DNA of 64,000 bases, from the NCBI GenBank assembly GCA_002710685.1, contig PALD01000034.1, positions 1 through 64,000 on the forward strand, written 5' to 3'. The notes under the pieces are model-generated. The model saw nothing but the letters and a program-made list of their open reading frames with translations, did not search any database and had not been told where the DNA came from. Of the stretch, positions 46,067-63,487 are shown piece by piece. The stretch's first letter is position 1. Every line of letters begins with the position of its first letter. The position numbers were made by a program, and so were the translations under genes. Origin of the DNA: Cytophagaceae bacterium. GTDB taxonomy: Bacteria; Bacteroidota; Bacteroidia; Flavobacteriales; Flavobacteriaceae.

Positions 46067-46441
46067 TCAATAACTATCATCAAAGTCAGTGTCAATAGCT
46101 TGTAGCACCCCGTTTTTAAAATCAGCAATGAGTTTATCTTGTATGGAGGCCAGACCGCGTTCCGTAAGGTTTTTATGTGAAAAATATTCGTCGCAGTAGT
46201 GATTGTCAAGCCCTCTTACATGGTGTTCACCATTCAGGTTAAAAAAAGTATCCATGGGACAAATATGCATTTTAAAGTATTCATCCAGAAATCTTTTTGA
46301 TTTCCATCGCACGCACCAGTACAGGTTTTCTTCCACAATGCGTAGAGTCAGTTCTTTCTCGGGCCTATCCTCTTGTAGTTTTTTTACAAATACGGTAAGG
46401 GCCTGGCTGAGCGTGGATGCAAAATGGGGAGGAGGGTGCAT
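46067..46441 (-). CDS. hypothetical 124-aa protein, tandem paralogue 1
   Basis: This is a small soluble acidic protein with no signal peptide. It has ENLYWCVRWKSKRFLDEYF in the middle and ends in KNGVLQAIDTDFDD. The neighbour at 46598-46972 has the same length and is close to half identical; the WK-S-[RQ]-FLDEYF block is nearly the same. Tandem paired small proteins of this kind can be immunity-type proteins, but no toxin gene is adjacent, so no function is proposed. Confidence 0.7.
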   Translation of the reverse strand: MHPPPHFASTLSQALTVFVKKLQEDRPEKELTLRIVEENLYWCVRWKSKRFLDEYFKMHICPMDTFFNLNGEHHVRGLDNHYCDEYFSHKNLTERGLASIQDKLIADFKNGVLQAIDTDFDDSY

Positions 46442-46597: not shown

Positions 46598-46972
46598 TTA
46601 ATTGTTAACATCAAGAGGCGTGTCAACGGCCTCAAGCACCCCTTTCTTAAAGTCCAGGATAAGTTCTTCCTGCAAGTTGACCAAAGCTTCAACCGTGAGG
46701 TCCTCCCGGTAGAAATACTCCTCGCCATACTCATCCATAAGGTCTATTGCCCTACGCTCGCCCATCACGTGGTACACGGCATCCATGGGCCATATCTGTA
46801 GCTGGAAGTATTCGTCCAGGAATTTTTGTGATTTCCACTTGATACACCAGTAGAGGTTTTCTTCCTCAATATGCAAGCTGAATTCCTTCCCGGGCCTATC
46901 GTCCTGTAACTCTCCTATAAATGCGGTAAGGGCCTGGCTAAATGTGGTTGCATAGTGGGGTGGAAGGGGCAT
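46598..46972 (-). CDS. hypothetical 124-aa protein, tandem paralogue 2
   Basis: This is the second copy of a tandem duplication. It starts MPLPPHYATTFSQALTAFIG and contains ENLYWCIKWKSQKFLDEYF, and ends in a KKGVLEAVDT tail. It is alkaline at the start and acidic in the last third. The 156-bp gap to its paralogue is AT-rich and holds a poly-T tract that may end its transcript. No domain is recognised. Confidence 0.7.
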   Translation of the reverse strand: MPLPPHYATTFSQALTAFIGELQDDRPGKEFSLHIEEENLYWCIKWKSQKFLDEYFQLQIWPMDAVYHVMGERRAIDLMDEYGEEYFYREDLTVEALVNLQEELILDFKKGVLEAVDTPLDVNN

Positions 46973-47852: not shown

Positions 47853-48779
47853 TTACTCCTCAAGCGCCTCAATTACCCGCTCAGGATAATCCGTGATGAT
47901 GCCGTCAACCTTAAGTTCAATCATTTTGGCTATGGCCAAAGAATCATTAACCGTCCAGGGGATGAGTTTCATGCCCAGTTCATGCACATGGTTTACCATG
48001 GTAGAGTCAGTCACCAATTTATAATGTGGACTGTAGATCTGTGGGGTGTAGCTTAGTTTCTGCATGTTCTCATCTACCGTACCATCGCCCACCAGGTATG
48101 CAATTTCCACCTCGGGGTATTTAGTGTGCAGGACCTCGAGCGGGGCGGGGTCAAAGGACTGTATGTTGTAATGCCCCTCAATATCCTTGCTGTTGATTAC
48201 CTCCATCAACAGGTCCACAAAGGGTTCGGGTTGTGGTTGGGTAACATCATATTCTTCCGGGACGCTCTTTACCTCAATGTTGTATTTTACCTGCGGTAGT
48301 CCCTTTGCGGCGATTTCGGCCTGTATGGTGTCTATCATTTCGCTCAGCAGGGGCTTGTAGGTCTTCATTCTTTGTTGCTGGGGGAAATTCTTGTTGCCCC
48401 GGCTACCGCTGTCCCACTGGCGTATTTCTTCATAATCCATCTCATGGAGGTTGTACCTGTCCTCATCTTCTTTGGCGACAGCCTCACCCCCTGGAGTACT
48501 CATGTAGAGCGAGTTCATGAAGGGTTCATGTGAAACGACAACTTTGTTGTCCTTGCTGATCACCACATCCAGCTCCAGCACGTCCACGCCCTTGTGCAGG
48601 GCACCCAGGAAGGCTTCAATGGTATTTTCGGGCAGGTTACCGCGCTCGCCACGGTGGCCCTGTACCGCAAGGGTAGGCTTGTCTTGTGTCATGGGTTCTT
48701 CTTTTTCTGCGGGTTTGTTTTCTTTACAGGCTAAAGCCAAAGCAAGCATTGCCAGGAGAAAGATACTTTTTGTTTTCAT
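47853..48779 (-). CDS. glycerophosphodiester phosphodiesterase lipoprotein
   Basis: This 308-aa protein has a lipobox (LALALACKE). The GDPD TIM-barrel motifs are QGHRGERGNLPENTIEAF, then LELDVVISKDNKVVVSHE and NIEVKS. The catalytic His pair and the Glu/Asp metal ligands are present. It releases glycerol-3-phosphate from deacylated phospholipids at the cell surface or in the periplasm. It lies just downstream of a SusCD locus that also encodes a phosphoesterase, but a terminator separates them. A perfect palindrome (47925-47940) lies within it. Confidence 0.92.
   Translation of the reverse strand: MKTKSIFLLAMLALALACKENKPAEKEEPMTQDKPTLAVQGHRGERGNLPENTIEAFLGALHKGVDVLELDVVISKDNKVVVSHEPFMNSLYMSTPGGEAVAKEDEDRYNLHEMDYEEIRQWDSGSRGNKNFPQQQRMKTYKPLLSEMIDTIQAEIAAKGLPQVKYNIEVKSVPEEYDVTQPQPEPFVDLLMEVINSKDIEGHYNIQSFDPAPLEVLHTKYPEVEIAYLVGDGTVDENMQKLSYTPQIYSPHYKLVTDSTMVNHVHELGMKLIPWTVNDSLAIAKMIELKVDGIITDYPERVIEALEE
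47925..47940. repeat. dispersed palindrome inside the GDPD gene
   Basis: TTTGGC, TATG, GCCAAA with perfect arms, encoding LAIAKMIE on the coding strand. Confidence 0.6.
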
Positions 48780-48958
48780 AAGGATAAAGGTAGATGTTAG
48801 TATTAAGATGGGGAAAGCAACATAATGAAATTAGAAATACGGGATTAGAACGACGAGCTACGAAAAATGAAATACGAACGATAATCAACCAATAACGAAC
48901 CGGGGATCCATCATCTTTTTGCCCATATAACCATTTTATTTCATAACGCCATAACACT

Positions 48959-48999
48959 AAAAAAAGGCCCGCCTTGAGCATAACACTTTTGGCAGGCCT
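48959..48999 (-). terminator. terminator downstream of the phosphoesterase gene
   Basis: AGGCCTGCC and GGCGGGCCT, as read on the minus strand (48991-48999 and 48965-48973), form a nine-pair stem with one mismatch and are followed by a T run. It ends the SusCD transcript before GDPD. Confidence 0.75.
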
Positions 49000-49015
49000 C
49001 ACTCACATAGAAAGA

Positions 49016-50596
49016 CTAATTACCAGTGATGGATTCTTCTATTTTATATGTCCGTTTACCAGTGTAGGTCTGGCCATATTGGTCAGTGGCCTTGATTTCT
49101 ATGGTATGTTCCCCCAGCTCGAGTTTTGTGGGGATGTTGCCACGCCATAGGTGCTCACAGTTGATGGGGTTGCTACTACGGCGTCCCGGCATCATTTTAT
49201 CTGCCAGGTCCCACTCATAGACGAGGGCCACATAACTGGGGTCAGGCTCTTCCATATAGCTCATTTTTTTCCATTCGCCACCATCCACACGGTAGAAAAC
49301 CTCATCACCTTCGGTACCCATGAAGAAGTTGGTGAAAATACCAGCTTTCGTGGGGCGGCCCTGGGCCACCACCTTAGGGGCAAAAATCTCCATTTGGAAT
49401 TCTTTGGGCTTGCCCGCAACCTTATAGTCGGTCATGTATTCATTGCCGTTGAAATGGATAAAGGCATACCCCTTGGGCGTTCCATCACGCATCACGGCAA
49501 TGGGCGTGCCATCAGGGCCCAGCTTGCCACTGTACCAGTCTCCGCTGGTGGTGCCCACATTGTATTCATGGTGTGGTTTCTTGCCTTTCCAGCCCTGGCT
49601 TTCGCCAAAGAAATCCTGACGCTGTATATGGGTGTGTGCCGAAAGGGTCAAGTTGTGCTCAAAGGGCAGCAACAGGTCAAAGAGACGCTGCCTGTCTTCA
49701 TCTCGGAAGCTGTCACCATCACCCTCCTCGCTCAACGGGATGTGGTAGGACACAACCACCAGGTAATCCTTGGGCACAAACCTGAGGTCGTTTTCCACAA
49801 AGTTGAGCTGGTCCTCACGGAAACCACCCCAGTATCCCTCATGGTCACGTGGGTCAGGATAAAGGATGTCATCAAGCACGATAAAATGCACCTTGCCATA
49901 ATTAAAAGCATAATTGGAAGGGCCAAAGTGTGCGGTAAAGCTATCGTCACTGTCCTTTTCATCCTTGGCATCAAAGTCCATATCGTGGTTGCCCATCACG
50001 TTGAACCATGGGATGCCTATCTTTTTCATGACCTTTTTATAAGGAGCATGCAGGTCAAGGTTGTTCCCCACGATATCACCCAGGCTCATGCCAAAGGGAA
50101 TGTCCTGTATACCCTCTACCTCGCTCACGATACCCTTTTCAAACCAGTCCATGTCCTGCATGGTATAGGGTTGTGGGTCGCCAAAGATAAGTGCGGTAAA
50201 CTTCTCGTTTTCTTCAGCTGGCAGGACGGCAAAATCAAGTTTTCTGGGGGCCTTGCCCGTGGGCGCGATACCCTTAAACTTGAGTTGAGGTGAACCCGCA
50301 GGCCGGTGAATCCTGAAGAACTGGGGGATGTTGAGGTCATCCACCGGTAGGGCATAGCCCGTGGGCTTGATGACCGCGATGATGTTCTCATCGCCCAGGG
50401 ACAGTTCATACATACCCTTATCATTTGTTTGTACCACCTGCTCCCCATTGGTCACTGATACGTTGGAAAGTACCTCTTCCTTACGGTCCTTTTTACCATT
50501 ACCATTAGCATCTACATACACATAGCCCTTTACGGTTTGCTGTGCCGTGAGTTGGCAGCTAAAAGCTATACCGGCAATAATCAATAACTTTTTCAT
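49016..50596 (-). CDS. secreted calcineurin-like phosphoesterase (MetallophosN/C architecture)
   Basis: The 526-aa protein has a signal peptide (LLIIAGIAFSCQLTAQ). An N-terminal carboxypeptidase-like beta domain (about 22-115) contains DANGNGKKDRKEE. A metallophosphoesterase core follows (about 125-350) with FGDPQPY, SLGDIVGNN, VMGNHDMDFD and SAHTHIQRQ. The C-terminal domain (about 365-520) is of the MetallophosC type. It should cleave a phosphoester outside the inner membrane. The gene is directly downstream of susD in the same operon, so its substrate may be the imported compound. Confidence 0.9.
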   Translation of the reverse strand: MKKLLIIAGIAFSCQLTAQQTVKGYVYVDANGNGKKDRKEEVLSNVSVTNGEQVVQTNDKGMYELSLGDENIIAVIKPTGYALPVDDLNIPQFFRIHRPAGSPQLKFKGIAPTGKAPRKLDFAVLPAEENEKFTALIFGDPQPYTMQDMDWFEKGIVSEVEGIQDIPFGMSLGDIVGNNLDLHAPYKKVMKKIGIPWFNVMGNHDMDFDAKDEKDSDDSFTAHFGPSNYAFNYGKVHFIVLDDILYPDPRDHEGYWGGFREDQLNFVENDLRFVPKDYLVVVSYHIPLSEEGDGDSFRDEDRQRLFDLLLPFEHNLTLSAHTHIQRQDFFGESQGWKGKKPHHEYNVGTTSGDWYSGKLGPDGTPIAVMRDGTPKGYAFIHFNGNEYMTDYKVAGKPKEFQMEIFAPKVVAQGRPTKAGIFTNFFMGTEGDEVFYRVDGGEWKKMSYMEEPDPSYVALVYEWDLADKMMPGRRSSNPINCEHLWRGNIPTKLELGEHTIEIKATDQYGQTYTGKRTYKIEESITGN

Positions 50597-50621
50597 TTTC
50601 TATGTTTAGTGAATTGGTTGT

Positions 50622-52055
50622 TTATTCATCCCACCATACGGGTGTGTTGATATCATCGGGCCCTCCCAGGAGCTCAATGGCTGCCTGATAGTTTGTATTG
50701 TTGTTTACCTGCACATCAGATGGATAATAAAAACGCACGGGCATGATACCATCATTGAGCATGGCAGGGGTCGTGGGCAATTCCGGGAAACCGGTACGGC
50801 GGTACTCAAACCATTGTTGATAGTCCACAAAGTACAATGCATAGTACTTTTGAAAAAGGATTTTTTGCAAGGTGCCGTCATATTCTGCCAGTGGGTTTGT
50901 AAAATAATCCCCGGGAAGCTCGGCCCCCAGTTGTTCCATCGCGGCGGTCACACCGTTCTCATAATGGGTCACTGCATCGCTGGTAAAGCCTCTTTGTGCC
51001 ATTTCGGCCTTGATGAACTCCACCTCTGCATAGGGCAGTAGATAGATAAGCATGGGGTTGGTCACCTGCTCGATATTAAAGGTTGAGGCATTGTAATCAA
51101 ACTGAGATTCAGGACCATCGTACGCGCTGGGTATACCCTTGTAGCCTATGTTGTTATTGTCGACATCCGTGGCCATGGTAGAGATTATGGGCCTCCTGGG
51201 GTCTTCAAGGGCATTGAGGTTATCTATAAAGTAAGATGCAATCTTTGTGCTAAGCCTAAAATCCTGTGGGCGTCCCCAGGGTGAAACATTAGGCGTGACG
51301 CCAGTGACCTCCAGTATGGCAGATTCATCAGTGCTCTCAAAAACAGGGTAGGCATCTGGGTTGTTGATCATGGATGCCAACTTTTGAAACGCCTGGGTCT
51401 CGCTGCGGTTTGAAATGCGGAGCAACAGGCGCATGTGCAATGAATTGGTAAACTTTTGCCAGCGCTCAACATCGTTGTGAAACAAGATGTCATCAGCATA
51501 CACCATACCGTCGCTAAGGTCATATAGTGTATTGGCACGCTCCAGGTCTTCCAGGATGGAGGTGTAGATAGACTCTTGACTGTCAAAGGTGGGGTAAAAG
51601 TTACCGCTCTCCCCACTGGCCGCTTCAGTATATGGCACGGGGCCAAAAAGGTCTGTAAGGTTGCTCATTACCCATGCCTTAAGGGTAAGAGCTATGGCTT
51701 CATAATTGCCATCCTCAGCACGTACCGAAGCTTCTTCCATCTCCTTGATGTTGTTCAACCATTTATAATAATTGTACCAGGAAGAGTTACCTATGTTCTG
51801 GCTCACATCATAGCGGTGCAACCCCCCCGAAACACTGGGAAAGGGCAGGGATACCTGCATGAGGTTGAAGGTTATGGCATCTGCACGGTCAGCATTGTGC
51901 GTTGCAAGGCCATAGATGATTGGGTTTATCAACGTGCCCGGGCTTATCTGGGCAATGCGGTTGGGGTCTTCGTTTACATCTTCAAAGTCACCCGTACAGG
52001 AAACCAAGATTGCCAGTAAAACAAAATATAGACTTGTTGTTTTTAATGTTTTCAT
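50622..52055 (-). CDS. SusD/RagB-type nutrient-binding outer membrane lipoprotein
   Basis: This 477-aa lipoprotein (signal LYFVLLAILVSCTGDF) belongs to the SusD-like_2 group (PF12771). Tetratricopeptide-like helices follow after FEDVNEDPNRIAQI and contain LTDLFGPVPYTEA, typical of the family. It forms a lid on the SusC receptor and captures oligomeric nutrients at the surface. It is 9 bp downstream of susC and 25 bp upstream of the phosphoesterase. The substrate is unknown. Confidence 0.92.
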   Translation of the reverse strand: MKTLKTTSLYFVLLAILVSCTGDFEDVNEDPNRIAQISPGTLINPIIYGLATHNADRADAITFNLMQVSLPFPSVSGGLHRYDVSQNIGNSSWYNYYKWLNNIKEMEEASVRAEDGNYEAIALTLKAWVMSNLTDLFGPVPYTEAASGESGNFYPTFDSQESIYTSILEDLERANTLYDLSDGMVYADDILFHNDVERWQKFTNSLHMRLLLRISNRSETQAFQKLASMINNPDAYPVFESTDESAILEVTGVTPNVSPWGRPQDFRLSTKIASYFIDNLNALEDPRRPIISTMATDVDNNNIGYKGIPSAYDGPESQFDYNASTFNIEQVTNPMLIYLLPYAEVEFIKAEMAQRGFTSDAVTHYENGVTAAMEQLGAELPGDYFTNPLAEYDGTLQKILFQKYYALYFVDYQQWFEYRRTGFPELPTTPAMLNDGIMPVRFYYPSDVQVNNNTNYQAAIELLGGPDDINTPVWWDE

Positions 52056-52064
52056 CCTTGTGAA

Positions 52065-55000
52065 TTATAAGTTTACTCTAAGGTTCATTCCATAGGTTGC
52101 AGGCGAGGGCATCTGGCCCATCTCGATACCTGGCAAGATTGTACTGCCGTTAAGGGCTGCTGTCTCTGGGTCATAAATGGGGAAGTCAGTCACCATGATC
52201 AGGTTTCTGCCATACACTGAAAGGTTGAGTGACTTGATACCTGACCTGCCCAGGAAGCTTTTGGGAAAATTATAGGCCAGGGAGACCTCCCTGAGCTTAA
52301 GGTATGAGGCATCAAATGAGTTTGACTCCACATTGGCCCTGCGATAATACCGGTTGTACCAGTCTGGTGTTACCGCCTCTGTCGTGTTGGGAGAATAGGT
52401 TCCATCATCGTTGAGTACCACTCCGTCACCCACGATAACACCTTCTTCACGGCCCATAAAGTTAGACCTCAACTTGCCCTGCTGGGTAAGTTTATGGTGT
52501 GTTTGTGAGTAGATGATGCCACCATATTGCCCATCAAGGGTGACGTTAAGTGTTAGGTTTTTATAGCTGAAACTATTGTAAAGCCCCGCTCTCCACTCTG
52601 GGCTGGCATCACCTATATATTGTATCTCATCAGGATACGCTGGGAGCCCGCCATTGTCATACACAATCTGCCCATCAGGAGAACGTACAAAGCCGTAACC
52701 ATAGATTGCCGTTGTTGTTCCACCTACTTTTGCGATAAGCGTGGCATTGCCACCACTTCCTATTTCCTGTTGCCCGTCAATGCCATCGGGCAGTTCAAGA
52801 ACCTTGTTCCAGTTTTGGCTAAAGGTGAGGTTGCTGCTCCATTTAAACTGCTCGTTATTGATGACCTTGCCCCCCAGGGTAAGCTCAATACCACGGTTTC
52901 TTACCTCACCAGCATTCAATACCCCGCTACTGTACCCTGTCGTGATATCAAGGGGAACATTGATGATTTGGTTTTTTGTGGTGGTTTCATATACGGTGGC
53001 ATCCAGGGTAACCCTACCCTTTAAAAAACGGGCCTCCACACCTGTCTCAAAACTTGTGGTGATTTCCGGTTTAAAGTTGGCATTATACAAGGTTAATGGT
53101 ACGGTGGCCGAACTTGCAAATGAATTCTGGCTGTAGTACTTAGAAGTCTTGTACGGGTCAGTATCATTACCCACCTGGGCAAACGAAAAACGGTATTTTA
53201 AGTAAGTGTCTTTGTTGAAGTTAAAAATGTCAGACATGATAAAACTGGCATTTGCCGAAGGATAGAAAAAGGAATTGTTCTTCTTGGGCAAGGTGCTTGA
53301 CCAGTCATTACGACCGGTAAGGTCAAGAAAAACCTGATTTTTATACCCTAGGGAAACAAGACCATATAAACTGTTGACCTTTCTGTTCTTGTCATAGGTC
53401 TGGATGATGGGGTTGTTGACCCCGTTGGAGAGCTTGTAGACCCCAGGTACCACAAGGGCGTCCACCGAGGCATCCGTGCGGCGGTACCTATAATCCATTG
53501 CGTTGCCCCCGGCAGATGCCGAAATGTTCAGGTCTTTGGTAATATCAGTGTTATAGCTCAAGAGAAAATCAGAGTTTACTTCCTGTTTCCAGATATCCTG
53601 ATTTTCATAATACCCCTGTGCATATCTGTTGATGCTGTATGGACGCTTGAGTTCGCGGTCCTGGTGGTAGGTGTTTAATGAGCTGCGAAGCATGAGTTCC
53701 AGCTTTGGCGCCAGGGTTATTTTCGTGTAAACGTTACCCACCATTTGATTGCTCTCCAGGGTGTTCAGGGCTTCATAGGCAATAAGGTAGGGGTTGTCTA
53801 TGTAAGAACTAAAGGGCTGTATCTGCTGTATGTTTTCCTTACCATCTTCCCAGATGGGTTTGTACCAGTCCAGGTCAACATTAGGGTTTTGAAAAATCAT
53901 GAAATACGCAATAGAACCATTGTTATAACCTGTACTGGGCAGGTTGTCACTGCTGCGGTTGTTGTAGTTGAGCACGCTACCTATCTTGATGGCCTTGGAG
54001 ACCTGATAGTCTGCATTGATTGATGCCGTGATTCTCTCATAGCCCGTATTGGGCATGATCCATTCATTTTTAGTATGACCCACGGAGAGCCTCATGGAGC
54101 CCTGGTCATCACCTCCTTGTATGGAAACGTTGTTGTCAAAGGTCATGCCTGTTCTCCAGAAGGCTTTGCGGTTGTCCGGGTAAGCCCTCCATGGGGTGCG
54201 CTGTGTTCCCTGTGATTCGGTAAGTGGGTCATATTGAAAAAACTCCTGCCCCTCAAAGCGTGGTCCCCATGCGCTACTGGTGCTACCGGTATTAGGGCCA
54301 TCTTCTGAAGCGCCATAGGAGTAATATGGATTGCCCTCAACATCAAAGCTCTTGCCCGTGCCCTGGCCATATTCATATTGCCAGTCTGGCCAGCGCTGAA
54401 TCTTGTCAAAGTTTACCGAAGAGTTAATGGTAATGCCCAGTCCAGAATTTTTCTTGCCGGACTTTGTGGTGATGATAAGGGCACCATTTGCCGCACGGCT
54501 ACCGTAAAGGGCAGTGGCCCCGGGACCTTTAAGTACGGTGACGCTCTCTATATCATCCAGGTTGAGGTCTGAGATGGCGTTACCATAATCAATGGGTGAA
54601 TCATCTCCCGTATATGCTGTTGAAGAACCTGATGTGGTCATCTCGCTGTTGACGGGCACACCATCTACCACGATCAAGGCATTGTTGCCGTTGGGATCTA
54701 GGGAGTTGTTGCCGCGCAGGGTGATCTGTTGTGAGTTCAGGGGGCCAGAACCCGAAGAAACGATTGAGAGCCCCGCAACCTTGCCCTTGAGGCCACTGGA
54801 CCAGTTGGTGGGCATGGCTTGAGATAGGTTATCGCTCTTGACCGTGGCCTGTGAGAACCCCAGTTTTTTCTCTTCTCTTTTAATGCCCAGGGCCGTCACG
54901 ACTACCTCGTTGAGGGCATTGATGCTCTCACGCAGCGTGACATTGATGGGTTCTCCTATCGTGGCCGTCACGGTAGTGCTCTCAAACCCCACAAAAGAGA

Positions 55001-55508
55001 TTTCAAGTTGTGCGGTAGTGTTGCTTACCTCTAGGGTAAAGTTGCCATCAAAGTCAGTCGTGGTGCCATTACTGGTACCCTTAACCACAACGGTGGCCCC
55101 GGGCAGGGCAAGGCCCTGGGGGTCCATCACCTTACCGCTCATGACCTGTTGCAGCGCAGTGGGGATGACAGTAATGGTCTTGTTGATGGTCTTGAACGCC
55201 AGCCCGGTCTTTTTGGTAATGTCTTCCAAGACCTCATCCAGGGGTTGCTGTTGTGTCGTGATGCTCAGGTACGTCCTGCTCTTGGTGATCTTGCCATCAA
55301 AGACAAATGTGAATTCAGACTGTTTCTCCACAGCATCAAAAAAGGTGGTGATGTGTGCGTTCTTGAGGTCTAGTGTTACTTTTGTGTCCTCTAGGTTCTG
55401 GTCATTTGCCGGTCTTGCAAAGGCATGGCCCAGCAAGAGCATAAAGAGTGCCAGGTGCAGGGACTTCATGCGGGTTAACTTTTTAAAAAGTTGTAGTTTC
55501 GTGTTCAT
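52065..55508 (-). CDS. SusC/RagA TonB-dependent receptor with STN signalling domain
   Basis: The 1147-aa outer-membrane receptor has a signal peptide near residues 14-32, an STN domain (about 44-116), a carboxypeptidase-regulatory beta domain (about 122-200), a plug (about 215-350, with ESVTVLKGPGATALYGSRAA) and a 22-strand barrel ending in GMNLRVNL. The STN domain is the contact for a FecR anti-sigma factor. The adjacent fecR and ECF sigma genes point to surface signalling that switches on this locus when the substrate is bound. Confidence 0.94.
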   Translation of the reverse strand: MNTKLQLFKKLTRMKSLHLALFMLLLGHAFARPANDQNLEDTKVTLDLKNAHITTFFDAVEKQSEFTFVFDGKITKSRTYLSITTQQQPLDEVLEDITKKTGLAFKTINKTITVIPTALQQVMSGKVMDPQGLALPGATVVVKGTSNGTTTDFDGNFTLEVSNTTAQLEISFVGFESTTVTATIGEPINVTLRESINALNEVVVTALGIKREEKKLGFSQATVKSDNLSQAMPTNWSSGLKGKVAGLSIVSSGSGPLNSQQITLRGNNSLDPNGNNALIVVDGVPVNSEMTTSGSSTAYTGDDSPIDYGNAISDLNLDDIESVTVLKGPGATALYGSRAANGALIITTKSGKKNSGLGITINSSVNFDKIQRWPDWQYEYGQGTGKSFDVEGNPYYSYGASEDGPNTGSTSSAWGPRFEGQEFFQYDPLTESQGTQRTPWRAYPDNRKAFWRTGMTFDNNVSIQGGDDQGSMRLSVGHTKNEWIMPNTGYERITASINADYQVSKAIKIGSVLNYNNRSSDNLPSTGYNNGSIAYFMIFQNPNVDLDWYKPIWEDGKENIQQIQPFSSYIDNPYLIAYEALNTLESNQMVGNVYTKITLAPKLELMLRSSLNTYHQDRELKRPYSINRYAQGYYENQDIWKQEVNSDFLLSYNTDITKDLNISASAGGNAMDYRYRRTDASVDALVVPGVYKLSNGVNNPIIQTYDKNRKVNSLYGLVSLGYKNQVFLDLTGRNDWSSTLPKKNNSFFYPSANASFIMSDIFNFNKDTYLKYRFSFAQVGNDTDPYKTSKYYSQNSFASSATVPLTLYNANFKPEITTSFETGVEARFLKGRVTLDATVYETTTKNQIINVPLDITTGYSSGVLNAGEVRNRGIELTLGGKVINNEQFKWSSNLTFSQNWNKVLELPDGIDGQQEIGSGGNATLIAKVGGTTTAIYGYGFVRSPDGQIVYDNGGLPAYPDEIQYIGDASPEWRAGLYNSFSYKNLTLNVTLDGQYGGIIYSQTHHKLTQQGKLRSNFMGREEGVIVGDGVVLNDDGTYSPNTTEAVTPDWYNRYYRRANVESNSFDASYLKLREVSLAYNFPKSFLGRSGIKSLNLSVYGRNLIMVTDFPIYDPETAALNGSTILPGIEMGQMPSPATYGMNLRVNL

Positions 55509-55580
55509 TTTTTAAAAAAGGCTATAATGTTAGTTTATGGTCAACTTTCCATCCCTGTTACCGCAGGGGTGGTTTTTTTC

Positions 55581-56528
55581 TTACTGTTCTTCTTTTTTTC
55601 TAATAAGGATTTGTTTTGGTGACTTATATTCAATCTCTAGGTTCTTCAGTAGGGCGATACTGGTCATGATGTTTTCAAGTTTTTCTTTCTTAAACTTTCC
55701 CGAAATGGTTTCCTGGCCTATTGTGGGGTCAGCAAAACCTATCTGTACGTCATACCAGTTTTCAAGGATGGTGGCGGTATCTGCAAGGGTGGTTTCTTTA
55801 AGGGATATGATATTCTTGGTCCAGAGGATATCATCATCACTGTCTGCCGTGCTTACTTTCGCCGTAAGGCTATTGAAAAACTCTACCTGTTGATTTTTTA
55901 TGAGGTGGATGAGGGTATCCACTTGCGTGGAACGTACGGCGACCTTGCCGCTGTTGACGCTTACCTTGATGCGGTCTTTGTCATAGCTGTTGATATTGAA
56001 GGAGGTGCCCAGTACGCGTACGGTCACATCGCCCATATTGACAGTAAATGGCCGGGTGGTATCGCGTGCCACGTCAAAGAAGGCCTCGCCCACAAGGGTA
56101 ATGTGCCGCTTATCCTCAAAACTTGACCTGTAGGTGATGCTGCTGTTGCCGTTAAGGAAAACATGGGTGCCATCTTCAAGAATGATTTCTTTTTTCTCGC
56201 CCTTTGCGGCAAGCTGGGTAATTGTTTGCGCAGGCAGTAAAAAGATGGCGCTTAGCGTCAATCCCACCAACGCAACAAAAATGGCTGCTGCGCCCCAGTA
56301 AACTTTAGTATTTAAAGTCTTTACCGGGTTGCGGTCAAGCACTGAGCGGAGTATGCGGTCGCGCTGAGCGGGCGAGGTTTTGATGGGCAGGTCAGCATGT
56401 TCATGCTGCAACCGATCCATAAAATATTCTACCTGCTCCTGCTCTTTGTGCGTGGCGCTTTTATCAGCATATTTTAGGGCAATCTTTTTAAAGTCTTCTT
56501 GCTTCAAGATGTGTGTCTTTACAAGCAA
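55581..56528 (-). CDS. FecR family anti-sigma factor
   Basis: The 315-aa protein has a cytoplasmic N-terminal segment (about 1-80), one membrane helix (about 83-107) and a periplasmic FecR domain with DGTHVFLNGNSSITY and the DVTVRVLGTSFNINSY stretch. A DUF4974-type C-terminal domain binds the STN domain of the receptor. It holds or activates the ECF sigma factor from the gene just upstream. The annotated start is a TTG; another TTG 21 bases later (leading KQEDFKKIALKYAD) is equally possible. A 72-bp gap with a hairpin separates it from susC. Confidence 0.9.
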   Translation of the reverse strand: MLVKTHILKQEDFKKIALKYADKSATHKEQEQVEYFMDRLQHEHADLPIKTSPAQRDRILRSVLDRNPVKTLNTKVYWGAAAIFVALVGLTLSAIFLLPAQTITQLAAKGEKKEIILEDGTHVFLNGNSSITYRSSFEDKRHITLVGEAFFDVARDTTRPFTVNMGDVTVRVLGTSFNINSYDKDRIKVSVNSGKVAVRSTQVDTLIHLIKNQQVEFFNSLTAKVSTADSDDDILWTKNIISLKETTLADTATILENWYDVQIGFADPTIGQETISGKFKKEKLENIMTSIALLKNLEIEYKSPKQILIRKKEEQ

Positions 56529-56606
56529 GTCACATTTTTTTAGGGCAACACGTAGTGCAAAAAATGCATTTAAAGGTTTGTTTAAATAGCGGTGTTTTTC
56601 TTAACC

Positions 56607-57185
56607 TTAATGAAACATTAAGGCAATGATTAGGGAAAGTTCGGCCGTATGGAGGTTAGAGCGTAAGTGGCTTAATGCGTCGCTTATGTGCTTCTCTACC
56701 GTGCGAATCGAGATATTGAGATGCTGTGCAATCTCTGAGTTTGAAAGGTCTTCAAAGCGGCTCAACATAAAAACCTTGCGGCAGCGGGGCGGAAGCTTGC
56801 TTATCTCGAGGTGTACACGTTGCTCAAGGTCATTAAACTCAAGTTGCTGTCCAGCGCGTGGCAGGGTGGGTATTTCTTCAAGTATGCTATCGTGAACCTT
56901 TGTGAACCTTAGGTCCCTGATGTGGTTTGCGATGCGGTATTTTACAGCTCTTAATAGGTAGGCTTCCAGGTTGATAATTTTCTGTACATCGGGCTTTTCC
57001 CAAAGGCTTATAAAGACCTCCTGAACGATATCTTCACATATTTTTTCTTTGCCATAGATGCGGTAGGCGTATGCGTAAAGGCGTGACCAGTACCGGTCAA
57101 AAAGGGCTTCAAAAGCCTTTTCACCCGCTGTGGGGAGCAGCTCTTGCAATTGAAAATCAGTGAGTGAGGAAAAGTCTTTATGCAT
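56607..57185 (-). CDS. ECF RNA polymerase sigma factor
   Basis: This 192-aa protein of the Bacteroidota ECF sigma-70 group has region 2 at about 25-95 (DIVQEVFISLWEKP) and region 4 at about 120-180, whose helix-turn-helix is SNSEIAQHLNISIRTVEKHI. It directs RNA polymerase to the promoter of its target locus once FecR signals. Here the targets are probably susC, susD and the phosphoesterase gene. It is upstream of fecR on the same strand, 78 bp apart. Confidence 0.94.
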   Translation of the reverse strand: MHKDFSSLTDFQLQELLPTAGEKAFEALFDRYWSRLYAYAYRIYGKEKICEDIVQEVFISLWEKPDVQKIINLEAYLLRAVKYRIANHIRDLRFTKVHDSILEEIPTLPRAGQQLEFNDLEQRVHLEISKLPPRCRKVFMLSRFEDLSNSEIAQHLNISIRTVEKHISDALSHLRSNLHTAELSLIIALMFH

Positions 57186-57292
57186 GGCTTTTGCTTAAAA
57201 ACAAATAACTCATTTTTCTTCGCTCACATCAAGTATGGAAGTTTAAGATTTGGTTAAGAAAAAGCAGGGTCTAGAGCGGGATTTAGATGATG

Positions 57293-57355: not shown

Positions 57356-58036
57356 TTATTTTTTCATCGCTTTCTTGATGCCAGCTTCCACAAGGGGGGC
57401 CATGACCTTGTAACCTGCGGGAGTGGGGTGGACGCCGTCTTCAGTATATTTTGGGTCGAGACCCTGCTTGTCGTCAACCATGGCCTTAAAGTAATCCACA
57501 AGGGTCATCTTGTTTTTTTTGGCGTAAGCCGTAAGCATCTTATTGAGTTTTGCTACGGGCTCCACGGGATTTATTTCCTTTTTCCAGGGGAGAATATTAG
57601 AAGGGACAAGCGTACACAGCACCACCTTGATGTCATTTGCTCGGGCAATCTCAGCCATGGACTGTATGTTATTAAAGGTCTGTTCCACGGTCATGGGGCC
57701 GGTATTGCCCGCTATATCGTTGATGCCGGCAAGGATGACCACAACCTTGGGATTGAGCTCAACTACATCTGGCCTAAAGCGTATGAGCATCTGTGGGGTG
57801 GTTTGCCCACCGATGCCGCGGTCAATGTAATGTGTGTTCTCAAAAAATTCTGGCATCTGGTACAGCCACCCCTCCGTGATGGAGTTGCCCATAAAGACCA
57901 CGCGTTCCGCATCGGGCTTTAAGGCTTTTAATGAATCGTTGTGTGCCGCGTATTTACCAAGGTTAGGCCAGTCTTGTGCCATGGCATGAGAAGTCGTTAG
58001 CAGTGTTAATCCTACAATCAAAAAGAAGGTTTTCAT
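57356..58036 (-). CDS. exported SGNH/GDSL hydrolase
   Basis: The 226-aa protein has a signal peptide ending near SHAMAQ. The nucleophile motif is VVFMGNSITEGW (Ser52), block III is AGINDIAGNTG, and the catalytic Asp/His pair is in DGVHPTPAGY. It fits acetyl- or acyl-esterases that trim carbohydrates. The gene is divergent from the GH127-type gene and may serve the same polysaccharide, removing acetyl groups. It ends near a nested inverted repeat. Confidence 0.88.
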   Translation of the reverse strand: MKTFFLIVGLTLLTTSHAMAQDWPNLGKYAAHNDSLKALKPDAERVVFMGNSITEGWLYQMPEFFENTHYIDRGIGGQTTPQMLIRFRPDVVELNPKVVVILAGINDIAGNTGPMTVEQTFNNIQSMAEIARANDIKVVLCTLVPSNILPWKKEINPVEPVAKLNKMLTAYAKKNKMTLVDYFKAMVDDKQGLDPKYTEDGVHPTPAGYKVMAPLVEAGIKKAMKK

Positions 58037-58245
58037 AGAAAATATTATAAATGTATATTGTACTTTTATTACTGTTCAGTAGTTTAAATATAATTCATTT
58101 ATCCTAGTCCATACAGTTTTTAAAACGTTTTAGTTTATTTGTGATTTACATGACTATTTTGATTGATAATTCATGAATCGCTATTGCAAATTAATTAAAA
58201 ATCAGAATTTCAAACATTTACACACCCGTTGATACTTGCCTGTAT

Positions 58246-60255
58246 ATGAAAAAACATTCCTATTTATTAAGCATTGCCTGCCTTATTTACGTTAACGTTT
58301 TCGTTGCAAACGCACAGGAGAGAAACAAGCATTATATCACAAACCAAGCCCCATTGCTTGCTCAAAAGTTCACCGCCCTTCCCCTGGGCGACATACAGCC
58401 GCATGGGTGGTTGAAAAAACAATTGGAGATACAACGTGATGGCTTGACGGGTAACCTGGATGAGGTGTACAAAGTTGTCGTGGGGGACAACAACGGGTGG
58501 CTGGGCGGCACGGGAGATAGCTGGGAGCGGGGCCCCTATTGGCTAGATGGCCTGACCCCGCTGGCCTATATACTGGATGATAAGGCGCTTAAAGCGAAAG
58601 TCAAGAAGTGGGTTGACTGGAGTATTGTGCATCAACGAGATAATGGATATTTTGGCCCCATCCCCATAACAGAAGATACCCCACGCATACCGGGCACACA
58701 GCAAACCCCGAGCGAAGACTGGTGGCCCAAGATGGTCATGCTCAAGGTGCTGCAACAATATTATACCGCAACAAATGATGAACGCGTCATCAAGCTGATG
58801 GACGGTTATTTTAGATACCAGCTGCAAGAACTACCACAAAAACCCTTGGGAAACTGGACATTTTGGGGAGAACGCCGTGGCGGTGACAACCTGCAACTGG
58901 TTTACTGGCTGTACAACATCACAAAAGAAGACTACCTGCTAGAACTGGGCCAGCTCATCCATGAGCAAACACATGACTGGGCAGGGATTTTTGTGAGCGA
59001 TGCCTTTAGAAGCGCAAACCCCTTTATGGACCTGCATTGCGTCAACGTGGCACAAGGGGTAAAAGAACCCATGATATATTATCAACAGAGCAGGGATGAT
59101 AAATTTTTGCATGCGCCAAAAGAGGGCCTGGAATCCCTCAAGGCAATCCACGGCTTTGCCAATGGCATGTATGGCGGTGACGAGGCATTGCATGGCAACA
59201 ACCCCATACAGGGGTCAGAGTTTTGTTCAGCCGTGGAGCTCATGTTTTCGCTAGAAAGCATGTTGCCCATCTCAGGCGATGTATATTATGCAGACTACCT
59301 GGAGAAGATAGCATTTAACGTATTGCCCACCCAGCAGAATGACGATTTTACTGCAAAACAATATTTTCAACAGCCCAACCAAATCAAGATATCGCACGAG
59401 TACAGAAACTTTAGGGATGCCCACCACGGCAGCAATACCGTATATGGATTGACCACCGGCTACCCATGCTGCCTGTCAAACATGCATCAAGGATGGCCCA
59501 AGTTTACACAAAACCTTTTTTACGCTACTGCGAAAGATGGCCTTGCGGCATTGGTCTATGCCCCCAGCGAGGTCAATGTAAAAGTAGCAGATGGTCAGGA
59601 GGTCAATATTGTTGAAGAAACAAACTATCCCTTTGAAGATGAGATCAATTTTAAGGTAAACCCCAAGCAAGCAGTAGCATTTGAATTTGTACTAAGGGTG
59701 CCCCAGTGGTGCGCGTCACCACAAGTAAGCATCAATGGCAAGCCAGTGACCACACAAGTCTCACCAGAAGGTTTGATCACCCTTGATCAAACCTGGAAAA
59801 AAGGAGACCAAGTGACGCTCAAACTCCCCATGGAGATAAGAACGTCCCGATGGTATGAAAAATCTGTTGCCTTTGAAAGAGGGCCCTTGTTATATGCCCT
59901 GAAAGTAGGAGAAGATTGGCAGCAAAAATCCAACGACCTCTGGCCAGACCCATTTTGGGAAGTCTACCCCACAACTGACTGGAACTATGGCATCCCCCGA
60001 AAAGTATTTGAGAAAAACAAGGTTGAAGTAAGGTACAACGGCATGAAGGAAATGCCATGGAACCTTGAGAACGCACCCATAACCTTGACCATGCAGGGAG
60101 TTCAATTGCCCTACTGGAAAGAATACAGTGGCAGCCCAGGCCCACTGCCCTTTGAGAACTTTACTGATCAAAAAAGAGGCCCCGCAAAGACCATTGAACT
60201 TATCCCATATGGATGTACAACCCTTCGGATTTCTCAGTTCCCGGTGATTCATTAA
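58246..60255 (+). CDS. DUF1680/GH127-type glycoside hydrolase
   Basis: The 669-aa secreted protein (signal VNVFVANAQ) has an (alpha/alpha)6 barrel at about 40-440 and beta domains after it. The zinc-thiolate site of GH127 beta-L-arabinofuranosidases (Glu, Cys, Cys, Cys) is matched by Glu325 and Cys327 in SEFCSAVE and by Cys408-Cys409 in TGYPCCLSNM. The nucleophile would be Cys408 by analogy. The exact linkage is not certain, since DUF1680 also includes enzymes with other pentose substrates. It leads a plus-strand polysaccharide locus with SusC and SusD. Confidence 0.88.
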   Translation: MKKHSYLLSIACLIYVNVFVANAQERNKHYITNQAPLLAQKFTALPLGDIQPHGWLKKQLEIQRDGLTGNLDEVYKVVVGDNNGWLGGTGDSWERGPYWLDGLTPLAYILDDKALKAKVKKWVDWSIVHQRDNGYFGPIPITEDTPRIPGTQQTPSEDWWPKMVMLKVLQQYYTATNDERVIKLMDGYFRYQLQELPQKPLGNWTFWGERRGGDNLQLVYWLYNITKEDYLLELGQLIHEQTHDWAGIFVSDAFRSANPFMDLHCVNVAQGVKEPMIYYQQSRDDKFLHAPKEGLESLKAIHGFANGMYGGDEALHGNNPIQGSEFCSAVELMFSLESMLPISGDVYYADYLEKIAFNVLPTQQNDDFTAKQYFQQPNQIKISHEYRNFRDAHHGSNTVYGLTTGYPCCLSNMHQGWPKFTQNLFYATAKDGLAALVYAPSEVNVKVADGQEVNIVEETNYPFEDEINFKVNPKQAVAFEFVLRVPQWCASPQVSINGKPVTTQVSPEGLITLDQTWKKGDQVTLKLPMEIRTSRWYEKSVAFERGPLLYALKVGEDWQQKSNDLWPDPFWEVYPTTDWNYGIPRKVFEKNKVEVRYNGMKEMPWNLENAPITLTMQGVQLPYWKEYSGSPGPLPFENFTDQKRGPAKTIELIPYGCTTLRISQFPVIH

Positions 60256-60373
60256 AGTTTCGTTAATATTTAATCTCCGCCCTGTTAAAAAGGTGTGTTT
60301 AGGCAATCATTAATATAATTTCGAGTTAAGAACTAAATCGATTTATTAATGTTTTCTTAATAAAAACAACACT

Positions 60374-63300
60374 ATGAAACAGAAATTATTGAAAATGAGA
60401 ACCGAACGAGGTTCCGTATTTCAGCGGAAGCTTTTTGACCTTGCATTTTTGAGAAAAAAAGGTGGTACAATGGCCTTTTTGATGATGCTTCTAGGGTTTG
60501 CCAATGTGCAGGCTGCAGAAGCATTTTTTTTACAAGACCCCATAACAGTTACAGGTACCATAACAGATCCTACGGGAATGCCACTTCCTGGTGCCAACGT
60601 GCAGGAAAAAGGTACTGATAATGGTGTGGTAACAGATTTTGATGGTTATTTTTCATTAGAAGTAGCTTCCGCGGAAAGCATCTTGCAAATATCTTACGTA
60701 GGTATGGCAACTCAGGAAGTTGGGGTTACAGATGGAGAACCCATTGCTGTGCAACTTGAAGCAGAGGCAGAGAGCCTTGAAGAGGTGGTACTTGTGGGGT
60801 ATGGTACCCAGCAACGTAGGTCTGTTACCACAGCTGTGGCAAAGGTAGAAGCAGAAGAATTTAATCAAGGAGTGGTTACATCTCCACTAGACCTTGTTCA
60901 GGGTAAAGTTGCAGGGCTTAATATTACCAGGGCGGCGGGCAACAACCCTAACTCATCAGCTTCTATACAATTGAGGGGGGTGACTTCACTTACAGGGTCA
61001 ACTTCACCGCTTATTGTTATTGATGGTATCCCTGGTGGTAACCTGGATTTGATTCAGCAAAATGATATAGAATCATTTGACGTTCTAAAAGATGGTTCCG
61101 CGGCAGCGATATATGGTACACGGGGAACCAATGGGGTAATCTTGATCACTACCAAGAAGGGGAAGAAAGGGGTCACTTCATTTGAATACTCCACATACCT
61201 ATCTAAAGAGTATGTTGCAAGTGAGCCTAATTTTCTTTCAGCAGATGAATATCGGGGTGCCATAGCTGATGGCCTGATTGCCGATTCTTATGACCTGGGC
61301 TATTCAACTGATATTTTTGATGAGCTGGTAAACCATTCTAACCTGAGTCAGTATCATAATTTTGTGGCTTCTGGTGGAGGAGAAAATGGTACTTACAGGG
61401 CATCTCTTTATTATCAAGAACTTGAAGGTATCGCAAAGGAAAATGATAGACAGGAATATGGGTTTAGGGCAAGTTTTAACCAGTCTGGGCTGGATGATAA
61501 ACTGACTTTTCAATCTAGTTTATCCACAAACTTCAGCAATGCTAATTTCTTGGGGGGCGGTCCTGACGATGATAATCGTGGTGGTTTATTTGGTATCGTG
61601 ACAGATTGGAACCCTACGGCACCCATCTATGCACCCTACTCAGTAGAAGAGGGAACTGACCTTTATAACGAGGGTGAATATGGTTATTATCAACCCCAAA
61701 ACGGATTTAATCCCATCTCCCAGTTTGCCAATAGGACAGATGAAAGGAAACAACAGACCTTTTCTGGTGATGCAAAACTTACCTATTCTATAATTGAGGG
61801 GCTGGATGCATCAATTTTTGGATCTTATCAGAGAGATACCTATAATGATAGATATTACAGGTCAACACAAGACTGGGATCAATATAACTCCGGTAGCGCT
61901 TATAACAGAACTGCCTATGCTTACAAAGGCAATTATCTTTCTTCTACAGTTACCATGGAGCCTACCATTAATTACAGTGTGGATATAAAAGACCATTCTT
62001 TTGAACTTTTGGGAGGATATAGTTATCAGTACTCAACAACCGAAACATATTCAATGGATAACAGTGGTTTTACATCTGATGTATTTCAAGACTGGAATTT
62101 TGGAGCAGGAAACGCAATAACTGATACAGATTTGCCAAGACCTAGTTTAGGAAGTTTTAAAGAAGATAATACGTTAATAGCTTATTTTACCAGGATAAAC
62201 TATGCATTTTTAGATAGATATTTCTTTCAGGCATCTATTAGACATGAGGGGTCATCACGTTTTGGAGCCAATAATAAGTGGGCTAGTTTTCCAGCTGTTT
62301 CGCTTGGTTGGTTAATTTCAGATGAAAATTTCCTTATTGATTCAAACTGGGTGAACAACCTTAAACTACGTGTGGGTTATGGAGAAACTGGAAATCAAGG
62401 AATCCCTAATTATCAATCGCTCTACACCCTGGGAACGGGAGGTAAATACCCCATCTTTTTAAGTAATGAAGATGCAGCTACATATTATCAGACCTATGGG
62501 CCTAATAGAAACTTTAACCCTAACTTAAAATGGGAAACCAAAAAAGAGGTAAACTTTGGTCTTGATTTTGGATTATTTCAAAATAGGGTAAGTGGAGCAC
62601 TTGATGTATACTATAGAAAAACTGAAGACCTTCTTTTAAACTATACGGTTCCACAACCTCCTTTTGTGCAACCTAGTATATATACTAATGTAGGTTCCAT
62701 CAGCAATAGCGGTATAGAATTATCACTAGGTGTGGATATTTTACGTGAAGGTGATTTTACCTGGTCAGCAGATTTTGCGGGTAACTATCAATCAAATAAA
62801 TTAGAGACCCTCTCTAACCAAACCTTTATAGCAAGCGAACTTTATGGGGGTAACATAGGTAATCCTGGAAATCTTGGGAATGCAATACGTAACACCGAGG
62901 GTGGCCCAATAGGTGATTTTTATGGAAAACATTTTGCTGGTTTTACAGACGATGGCAAGTGGCTATTTTATAAAGCAGACGGCTCTACCGGAACCGTGGA
63001 CCAGATGACTGAAGAAGATAAAACGGTTATAGGTAATGGTGTCCCAAAATTCAATGCATCACTTTCAAATACGTTTAAGTACAAGAATTTTGATTTGAGG
63101 GTGTTCTTTAGGGGTAAATTTGATTATGACATCTTGAATACTGTCAATTTGTTCTATTCTAACCCTACGTTGCTGCCAGGTAACGTGCTATCATCGGCAT
63201 TGACGACCCAGGTAAATCAAGCACCGCAATTTTCTGATTACTACTTAGAAAAAGGTGATTTTGTTAAACTTGACAATATAACACTGGGCTATAGCTTTGA

Positions 63301-63487
63301 TTTTAAAGAAAACACACCTATAAAAGCACTTCGTATCTATGTAAGTGCAAGAAACCTGGCAACCTTTACTGGATATAGTGGTAGAGACCCTGAAGTTCAG
63401 GATACAGGGCTTTATCCAGGTATTGATGATAGGACATTTTACCCTAGGACCACTACGGCTACAGCTGGATTTAACGTAACCTTTTAA
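60374..63487 (+). CDS. SusC/RagA TonB-linked outer membrane receptor
   Basis: The 1037-aa receptor has a long N-terminal signal region (hydrophobic core at 33-48, AFLMMLLGFANVQA). A carboxypeptidase-regulatory domain (about 57-135) and a plug (about 140-250, with DVLKDGSAAAIYGTRG) precede the barrel ending in TTATAGFNVTF. It lacks an STN domain, so it is not signalling through FecR. It imports oligosaccharides into the periplasm with SusD encoded next to it. The gap to the upstream glycosidase gene is 118 bp. Confidence 0.95.
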   Translation: MKQKLLKMRTERGSVFQRKLFDLAFLRKKGGTMAFLMMLLGFANVQAAEAFFLQDPITVTGTITDPTGMPLPGANVQEKGTDNGVVTDFDGYFSLEVASAESILQISYVGMATQEVGVTDGEPIAVQLEAEAESLEEVVLVGYGTQQRRSVTTAVAKVEAEEFNQGVVTSPLDLVQGKVAGLNITRAAGNNPNSSASIQLRGVTSLTGSTSPLIVIDGIPGGNLDLIQQNDIESFDVLKDGSAAAIYGTRGTNGVILITTKKGKKGVTSFEYSTYLSKEYVASEPNFLSADEYRGAIADGLIADSYDLGYSTDIFDELVNHSNLSQYHNFVASGGGENGTYRASLYYQELEGIAKENDRQEYGFRASFNQSGLDDKLTFQSSLSTNFSNANFLGGGPDDDNRGGLFGIVTDWNPTAPIYAPYSVEEGTDLYNEGEYGYYQPQNGFNPISQFANRTDERKQQTFSGDAKLTYSIIEGLDASIFGSYQRDTYNDRYYRSTQDWDQYNSGSAYNRTAYAYKGNYLSSTVTMEPTINYSVDIKDHSFELLGGYSYQYSTTETYSMDNSGFTSDVFQDWNFGAGNAITDTDLPRPSLGSFKEDNTLIAYFTRINYAFLDRYFFQASIRHEGSSRFGANNKWASFPAVSLGWLISDENFLIDSNWVNNLKLRVGYGETGNQGIPNYQSLYTLGTGGKYPIFLSNEDAATYYQTYGPNRNFNPNLKWETKKEVNFGLDFGLFQNRVSGALDVYYRKTEDLLLNYTVPQPPFVQPSIYTNVGSISNSGIELSLGVDILREGDFTWSADFAGNYQSNKLETLSNQTFIASELYGGNIGNPGNLGNAIRNTEGGPIGDFYGKHFAGFTDDGKWLFYKADGSTGTVDQMTEEDKTVIGNGVPKFNASLSNTFKYKNFDLRVFFRGKFDYDILNTVNLFYSNPTLLPGNVLSSALTTQVNQAPQFSDYYLEKGDFVKLDNITLGYSFDFKENTPIKALRIYVSARNLATFTGYSGRDPEVQDTGLYPGIDDRTFYPRTTTATAGFNVTF

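Follow-up and report, generated by a model that had tools for sequence, protein, structure and literature searches.

What does an outer-membrane importer of the SusCD type carry when no sugar-cleaving enzyme is encoded with it? This question is raised by a locus in a member of the Flavobacteriaceae (GenBank assembly GCA_002710685.1, deposited as Cytophagaceae bacterium), which occupies positions 47853-57185 on the minus strand of the stretch analysed, the first 64,000 nucleotides of contig PALD01000034.1 (the window). The locus encodes an extracytoplasmic function (ECF) sigma factor, a FecR-type anti-sigma regulator, a SusC-type receptor, a SusD-like lipoprotein, an exported phosphoesterase (MPE) and a glycerophosphodiester phosphodiesterase (GDPD). 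Our reading, to which we give a probability of about 0.7, is that it forms a phosphate utilisation system (PUS) by which small organophosphates are taken up, the most probable being glycerophosphodiesters released from phospholipids. Gene content, gene order, conservation, a DNA motif and a terminator were observed directly, and from these we infer every functional step, with glycerophosphodiesters as the likeliest cargo. The reading bears on the question of how Bacteroidota without the common organophosphate importers are supplied with phosphorus; in the excerpts of PMC8115612 that we consulted, plant-associated Bacteroidetes are described as lacking PstSABC and the common organic-phosphorus transporters.

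The phosphoesterase pair and its recurrence

Open reading frames and family scans placed all genes of an ECF sigma, FecR, STN-SusC and SusD locus on the minus strand, as an earlier note on this DNA had described. The ECF sigma factor gene (56607..57185) matched TIGR02985 (155 bits, cut-off 126.4), Sigma70_r2 and r4_2, and is followed by fecR (55581..56528; PF04773 and PF16344). The SusC-type TonB-dependent receptor (52065..55508) matched STN, carboxypeptidase-regulatory-like, plug and barrel domains (PF07660, PF13715, PF07715 and PF00593) as well as TIGR04056 (615.6 bits). With an STN-bearing receptor beside fecR and the ECF gene, the Pfam and TIGRFAM matches gave the gene set of FecI/FecR signalling, in line with the substrate-sensing loop proposed in the earlier note. 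The surface lipoprotein is of the SusD-like_2 type (50622..52055; PF12771, 4.8e-141), and its Cys20 was invariant in 28 aligned sequences. No carbohydrate-active enzyme (CAZyme) or glycosidase was found within 47853-57185 among the open reading frames or by family scans, in agreement with the earlier note, so the locus does not qualify as a polysaccharide utilisation locus (PUL).

The gene after susD (49016..50596) encodes the MPE, whose MetallophosN, Metallophos and MetallophosC domains were all above the Pfam cut-off, as had been assigned. The protein had been called secreted; export stood, given an apparent signal peptide seen by eye, and secretion did not, as no secretion domain was matched. 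Alignment of 40 MPEs revealed invariant D140-P-Q142, GD174, GNH204, H285 and H321-T-H323, which we take to be the metal-site motif. Sequence searches found no solved relative of the MPE, the profile matching only SdrD, through the N-terminal domain. The AlphaFold2 model (mean pLDDT 90.8, pTM 0.90) had a GpdQ-like catalytic fold: VIA-align ranked GpdQ top (Z 24.3, root-mean-square deviation 2.3, 221 residues), followed by Rv0805 (23.4), Lmo2642 (21.7), purple acid phosphatases (about 21), and SMPDL3A and acid sphingomyelinase (about 19). Foldseek ranked Rv0805 1st and GpdQ 5th, and on the model we count the two matches as tied (Z difference under 1).

The GDPD lipoprotein gene (47853..48779; PF03009, 6.4e-38, 131.7 bits against a cut-off of 23.6) has 3ch0 as its best solved relative (E 4.4e-63). 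In 49 aligned sequences Cys18 was at least 95% conserved, and so were the HR, ExD, H and ExK type residues that mark the GDPD family, to which we presume active-site roles. An intrinsic terminator (48957..49000), consisting of a 10-bp outer stem and then a T run, separates it from the MPE gene; the stem folds at -24.4 kcal/mol (z -2.23) and was equalled by 9 of 200 shuffles. The claim of a GDPD lipoprotein beyond a terminator was thus borne out. Because a GpdQ-like MPE adjoins a GDPD, glycerophosphodiesters would be the simplest substrate common to the two. The enzyme pair and the best-aligned GpdQ fold support phosphodiesters, and glycerophosphodiesters above all, as the cargo.

We examined conservation in 12 genomes of the same genus, which appears to be Leeuwenhoekiella. 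The MPE occurs in nine of them at 64-67% identity, the order ECF-FecR-SusC-SusD-MPE is kept in all nine loci, and the GDPD gene is next in seven. One of these loci (L034) has a short ECF frame and a fecR split over two frames. Since the MPE and the gene order recur in nine of the 12 genomes, the locus is not a chance assembly. The genomes compared here and below are related, and the counts are not independent events.

Two surveys extended the comparison, and the gene set recurred in other genomes of the family as well as in the genus. The MPE-first survey took the best 80 of 555 relatives, with named hosts, and therefore leans towards close relatives. At distances of up to 10 kb from the MPE gene there was a SusC-type gene in 71 loci, a SusD gene like the window's in 60, fecR in 55, an ECF gene in 55 and a GDPD gene in 48; the next cluster (12/80) was apparently another SusD type. 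Counting only same-strand genes with gaps below 200 bp, SusC was found in 67/80, ECF in 50/80 and GDPD in 49/80. The GDPD gene started at most 20 bp from, or overlapped, the preceding gene in 30 of 48 loci (L055 probably being a start-calling artefact) and at most 129 bp from it in 48/48. Given these short gaps, the GDPD gene probably belongs to the operon in most relatives. No glycosidase was among the recurrent neighbours profiled with Pfam at MPE loci, and of the 124 extra same-strand genes 20 were profiled; judged by their Pfam names, these include no glycoside hydrolase except for one 3-keto-disaccharide hydrolase.

The SusD-first survey covered 397 family genomes and gave 61 SusD matches passing E 1e-90, in 51 genomes; both family searches scored the best 3 or 4 candidates per genome, so that the list of low-scoring SusD matches is partial. 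A score gap divided the matches into 24 above 520 bits and 37 that reach 353 at most. Each of the 24 high-scoring loci had an MPE homologue close by (21 judged from coordinates and three, L293-L295, from fetched loci), which was closely related in 17 and divergent in seven. Loci L043, L293, L294, L295, L318, L325 and L327 had only a divergent or longer form (111-188 bits); MetallophosN/C domains were confirmed by Pfam in the two such forms profiled, the divergent MPE of L043 and the long form of L322. A GDPD gene was found at 19 of the 24 loci (adjacent in 18, one gene away in L314) and was not detected at L293, L315, L318, L325 and L043. The only glycosidase identified among these close SusD loci, most of whose other neighbouring genes were not profiled, was a GH97 enzyme in L314. 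The earlier note had held that a locus found mostly with glycosidases would speak against uptake of a phosphorylated compound rather than a plain polysaccharide; the SusD-first counts went the other way, and together with the enzyme pair and the GpdQ fold they support and sharpen that proposal.

Four of the 19 GDPDs were distant (54-58 bits; L294, confirmed by Pfam, and L295, L314 and L327), and distant or different GDPDs also stand in at L095 and L040. This replacement of the usual enzyme suggests that GDPDs were recruited repeatedly. Near the GDPD slot some loci carry an EEP phosphoesterase (profiled on the L046 member of the cluster); also seen there are a Metallophos-PQQ protein, the product of a further Metallophos gene, an alkaline-phosphatase-superfamily protein in L123 and, in L042, a PhoA with GDPD_2. 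A polyphosphate kinase gene comes soon after the GDPD gene in six Flavobacterium loci (L080, in which it was profiled, L081, L091, L093, L102 and L106). A subtype in which two MPEs (about 660 and 530 aa) stand in tandem, together with a BACON-type protein, was seen in L064, L075, L076, L083, L084, L088 and L094, three of these seven loci also encoding a 428-aa protein without a Pfam match.

Of the 37 next-nearest SusD loci 16 were read; an MPE was present in one (L328) and a GDPD was detected in none. This neighbouring branch also includes a phosphorus-related locus, L298, the one profiled. L298 encodes a 1-hydroxy-2-aminoethylphosphonate ammonia-lyase (722 bits, cut-off 525) and a phosphonatase-like enzyme (233, cut-off 218.9), together with a type I phosphodiesterase and a protein of the purple-acid-phosphatase type, and by these matches is likely a phosphonate SusCD locus; L299, L300, L304 and L307-L309 resemble it by gene sizes only.

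A candidate Pho box and the control of the locus

De novo search of the 250 bp before the ECF gene, seeded from every 20-mer of the window, gave the motif YTTAAC-N5-(C/G)TTAAAY, an 11-bp direct repeat located about 73 bp upstream of the gene in many loci. The window's site (57239..57258, minus strand) reads CTTAAC-N5-CTTAAAC and lies 73 bp upstream of the ECF start. A spacing of 11 bp is that of PhoB boxes elsewhere. The search replaced a hand-made repeat pattern, first spotted by eye, for which simple shuffles gave many matches with two mismatches.

The motif was then scored in a leave-one-genus-out test, seeded with the window's site, with 243 control upstreams (every fourth control). The results showed that 43 of 52 ECF upstreams fell in the top 2% of the controls. 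The repeat is conserved across several genera and was seen in the Flavobacteriaceae and also in Algoriphagus. Ten loci of 16-20 kb were scanned, nine from Leeuwenhoekiella and one from Gelidibacter; a score above 14 occurred once before the ECF gene in 10/10, with a weaker second match in three. Nine other testable ECF genes, in the window genome (G000) and in G009, scored from -4.0 to 12.4, and at MPE loci the gap before fecR had a score above 13 in 3 of 49.

Genes with a reported phosphate response offered a further comparison. According to the excerpts consulted, the PUSII genes of Flavobacterium johnsoniae (Fjoh_3249-3252, a FecR-like gene included) and Fjoh_0545, a TonB receptor gene beside phoBR, are induced by phosphate depletion (PMC8115612). 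PUSII and phoBR-linked loci of the same layout were collected from Flavobacterium genomes and scored with a matrix trained on MPE loci only; these genomes are close relatives, so p values overstate independence. PUSII fecR upstreams scored 11.7-19.0 in 8/8, always 80 bp before the start, and the receptor beside phoBR had the motif in 6/6 (10.5-12.1); the control median was 1.1, and 4 of 224 controls reached at least 11. PUSII ECF upstreams scored 7.7-14.9 (8/8), a range in which controls are commoner (23 of 224 reach 7.5), and the PUSII ECF gene is not listed in the induction table of PMC8115612. In the PUSII loci (L249, L251-L257) the repeat-type sites lie at -167 to -180 before the ECF gene and at -80 before fecR, and by eye both are followed downstream by CCTACC and GACATA blocks, a possible full promoter layout.

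Because the repeat recurs before homologues of genes reported to be induced by phosphate starvation in Flavobacterium, we propose it with moderate confidence as a candidate Pho box. A putative response of the locus to phosphate limitation is supported indirectly by this candidate. Our literature searches found no published Pho-box sequence for Bacteroidota; PMC4796936 mentions predicted Pho boxes near plcP, the passage in question giving no sequence. The conserved 11-bp repeat as a candidate Pho box appears to be what is new here, and it would make a wider regulon searchable from sequence. The exact motif string failed as a regulon finder, with five matches in the window's own genome and eight for the reversed control, and inspection by eye of the other four sites, whose neighbours were not profiled, showed no known phosphate gene beside them. 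The absence of PhoU, which is encoded in 27 of the 397 family genomes, was dropped as uninformative support: it was found in 0/12 genomes tested, and its overlap with MPE carriers was one genome (G369) where about 2.4 were expected.

A second conserved element lies between fecR and susC (55549..55582, plus strand). A conserved stem-loop preceded by an A run indicates an intrinsic terminator on the opposite strand. An antisense terminator score of at least 9 was reached at 45 of 55 such junctions, the window included, and at none on the sense strand (2.2% of shuffles); in a plain hairpin test, 22 of 52 junctions were above 99% of shuffles. Among other fecR-susC junctions, 10 of 19 have the antisense terminator too, so the hairpin is general and was rejected as something peculiar to this locus; PUSII junctions mostly lack it (1/7 reaches 9). 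None of the five sources scanned had an Rfam match at the hairpin. DonS-type antisense RNAs, with transcripts of about 78-128 nt, are described as repressing susC homologues in Bacteroides (PMC7366714). The antisense terminator near the susC start resembles the layout of these cis-antisense RNAs of Bacteroides PULs, as far as the excerpts of PMC7366714 and PMC11697453 describe it. Here the antisense TAnnTTTG promoter showed no excess (11/55, with 20% expected by chance). We therefore treat a DonS-like antisense transcript as a prediction.

These elements can be assembled into a mechanism. At low phosphate, PhoB would bind the 11-bp direct repeat and raise expression of the ECF sigma factor gene. 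SusD and SusC would bind the ligand and import it across the outer membrane, and the occupied receptor would signal through its STN domain to FecR, so that the freed sigma factor could transcribe susC, susD and the MPE gene. Hydrolysis of the ester by the two enzymes, the GpdQ-like MPE and the GDPD lipoprotein, would take place in the periplasm or at the envelope and lead to uptake of phosphorus (and of glycerol or head group), while an antisense RNA that terminates in the fecR-susC gap might damp susC. A PhoB-type box on the sigma gene of a FecR/STN circuit would form an AND-gate, producing the importer only when phosphate is scarce and phosphodiester is present, with a DonS-like brake; we hold this arrangement tentatively, at slightly less than even odds. 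If true, it would make the Pho regulon of these Bacteroidota accessible from sequence.

Cargo and related systems

Several observations weigh against a phosphate-responsive importer of glycerophosphodiesters. The MPE is missing from three of the 12 same-genus genomes, the GDPD gene is not beside it in two of the nine same-genus loci (L032 and L034), and 13 of the 80 MPE loci lack SusC in the same gene run, including that of the most similar MPE (Neptunitalea, 71%). The window's own GDPD gene lies past a terminator. The MPE has D-x-Q where the usual metal motif is D-x-H, and Q142 is invariant in 40 sequences; histidine is usual at this position in many relatives. Since the MPE fold also fits Rv0805, purple acid phosphatases and sphingomyelinase-like enzymes, it does not fix the substrate. 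Concerning the motif, nine of the 52 ECF upstreams were below the 2% mark: all Galbibacter (two) and Parapedobacter (two), Echinicola, L095, one Salegentibacter and two Leeuwenhoekiella. Three of these misses were narrow (L051, L070 and L108), and that of L052 apparently came from a too-early start call. The window has another strong match (19.9) at 62513, within coding sequence, and in the Flavobacterium phoBR loci the motif was found before phoB in 0/6 and before the linked glycosyltransferase gene in 2/6. PhoX upstreams (L159-L163) had no site at a score of 14, a weak test given that this threshold is above several PUSII sites; PhoX was found in 1/12 and 4/14 genomes searched.

Three other accounts of the locus were considered. 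SusCD pairs usually import oligosaccharides, and the cargo might be a phosphorylated glycan (teichoic-acid-like, phosphomannan or phosphoglycan) from which the esterases strip phosphate or glycerol phosphate, the sugar being the prize. The GH97 gene of L314, which lies between those of the MPE and the GDPD, would fit such a cargo, as would a Laminin_G_3 protein with the 3-keto-disaccharide hydrolase in L047 and a phosphomannose isomerase in L076. The absence of glycosidases among the profiled recurrent neighbours, and of glycoside hydrolases other than that 3-keto-disaccharide hydrolase among the 20 of 124 extra genes profiled, makes this account unlikely. A little less likely still is a cargo of nucleotides, cyclic nucleotides or nucleic acid fragments, with the MPE as an Rv0805-like phosphodiesterase. 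Rv0805 was the second fold family by VIA-align and the first by Foldseek, and L296, a less closely related SusD locus in the window genome, encodes a nucleoside hydrolase, but an MPE was not detected there, and the steady partner at the close SusD loci is a GDPD (19/24).

We consider it very improbable that the locus serves to remodel the cell's own lipids or envelope, or to recycle them, instead of scavenging nutrients. A dedicated SusCD importer with FecR sensing would be an odd choice for such a role, even though phosphate-starved marine bacteria, Flavobacteria included, replace their phospholipids, as reported in the part of PMC4796936 available. We therefore retain uptake of small organophosphates by a PUS as the preferred reading; the conserved SusCD system with its clear enzyme pair makes a defined candidate for lipid-head-group uptake.

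The closest known systems are those of Flavobacterium johnsoniae, PUS I-IV (PusCD; Lidbury and co-workers, ISME J 2020, PMC8115612), which, in the excerpts consulted, combine a SusCD/TonB receptor with an ECF sigma factor and/or FecR and have phosphoesterases in place of CAZymes. The window locus has a SusCD-like pair and co-located phosphoesterases instead of CAZymes, and counts as a variant of the PUS rather than as a system of a new kind. PUSI is described there as having PusCD and two phosphodiesterases, one with a Metallophos domain and one of PI-PLC type, and PUSII as having PhoA1, whereas the window locus has a MetallophosN/C enzyme and a GDPD. PusD1 and PusD2 are of the PF07980/PF14322 type and the window SusD is PF12771, a difference that is not defining; PusD is described as polyphyletic, with three Pfam types. 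Six PusCD forms are described in that paper, and the window locus may be one of them. L042 of genome G033 appears to form a bridge: it encodes SusC, a PF07980-type SusD, a MetallophosN/C enzyme and a PhoA with an unusual GDPD_2 domain, as reported for PhoA1.

The MPE is alike in catalytic-domain fold to GpdQ of Enterobacter aerogenes, over the 221 residues aligned at Z 24.3, but the two share 13% identity, and the MPE differs in the Gln of its first metal-site motif and in its additional N- and C-terminal domains. Surface signalling of the FecI/FecR/FecA type shares with the window locus an ECF sigma factor, FecR and an STN-bearing receptor; here the receptor is SusCD, and the ligand would be an organophosphate, not ferric citrate.

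Neighbouring genes

Upstream of the locus by 1.1 kb, a GH127-type gene and a second SusC gene run divergently on the plus strand (58246-63487), preceded on the minus strand by an SGNH hydrolase gene, the three together spanning 57356-63487. The SGNH and GH127-type genes had no match beside the locus in nine same-genus loci, and for this reason they were left out of the unit; the three genes are counted as a separate glycan locus. The NCBIfam aceric acid hydrolase model scored 103 bits in this region, far under its cut-off of 950.

At positions 46067-46441 and 46598-46972 the window carries a tandem pair of genes for similar 124-aa proteins. Besides its nucleoside hydrolase, locus L296 of the window genome (G000:C70:196000-215900) encodes a solute-binding protein, ABC transporter parts, and kinase-like and radical SAM proteins. 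The assembly of the window genome has a contamination rating of 8.79%, and by eye its contig C21 (L154) carries cytosine methyltransferase-like and ParA-like genes, perhaps foreign.

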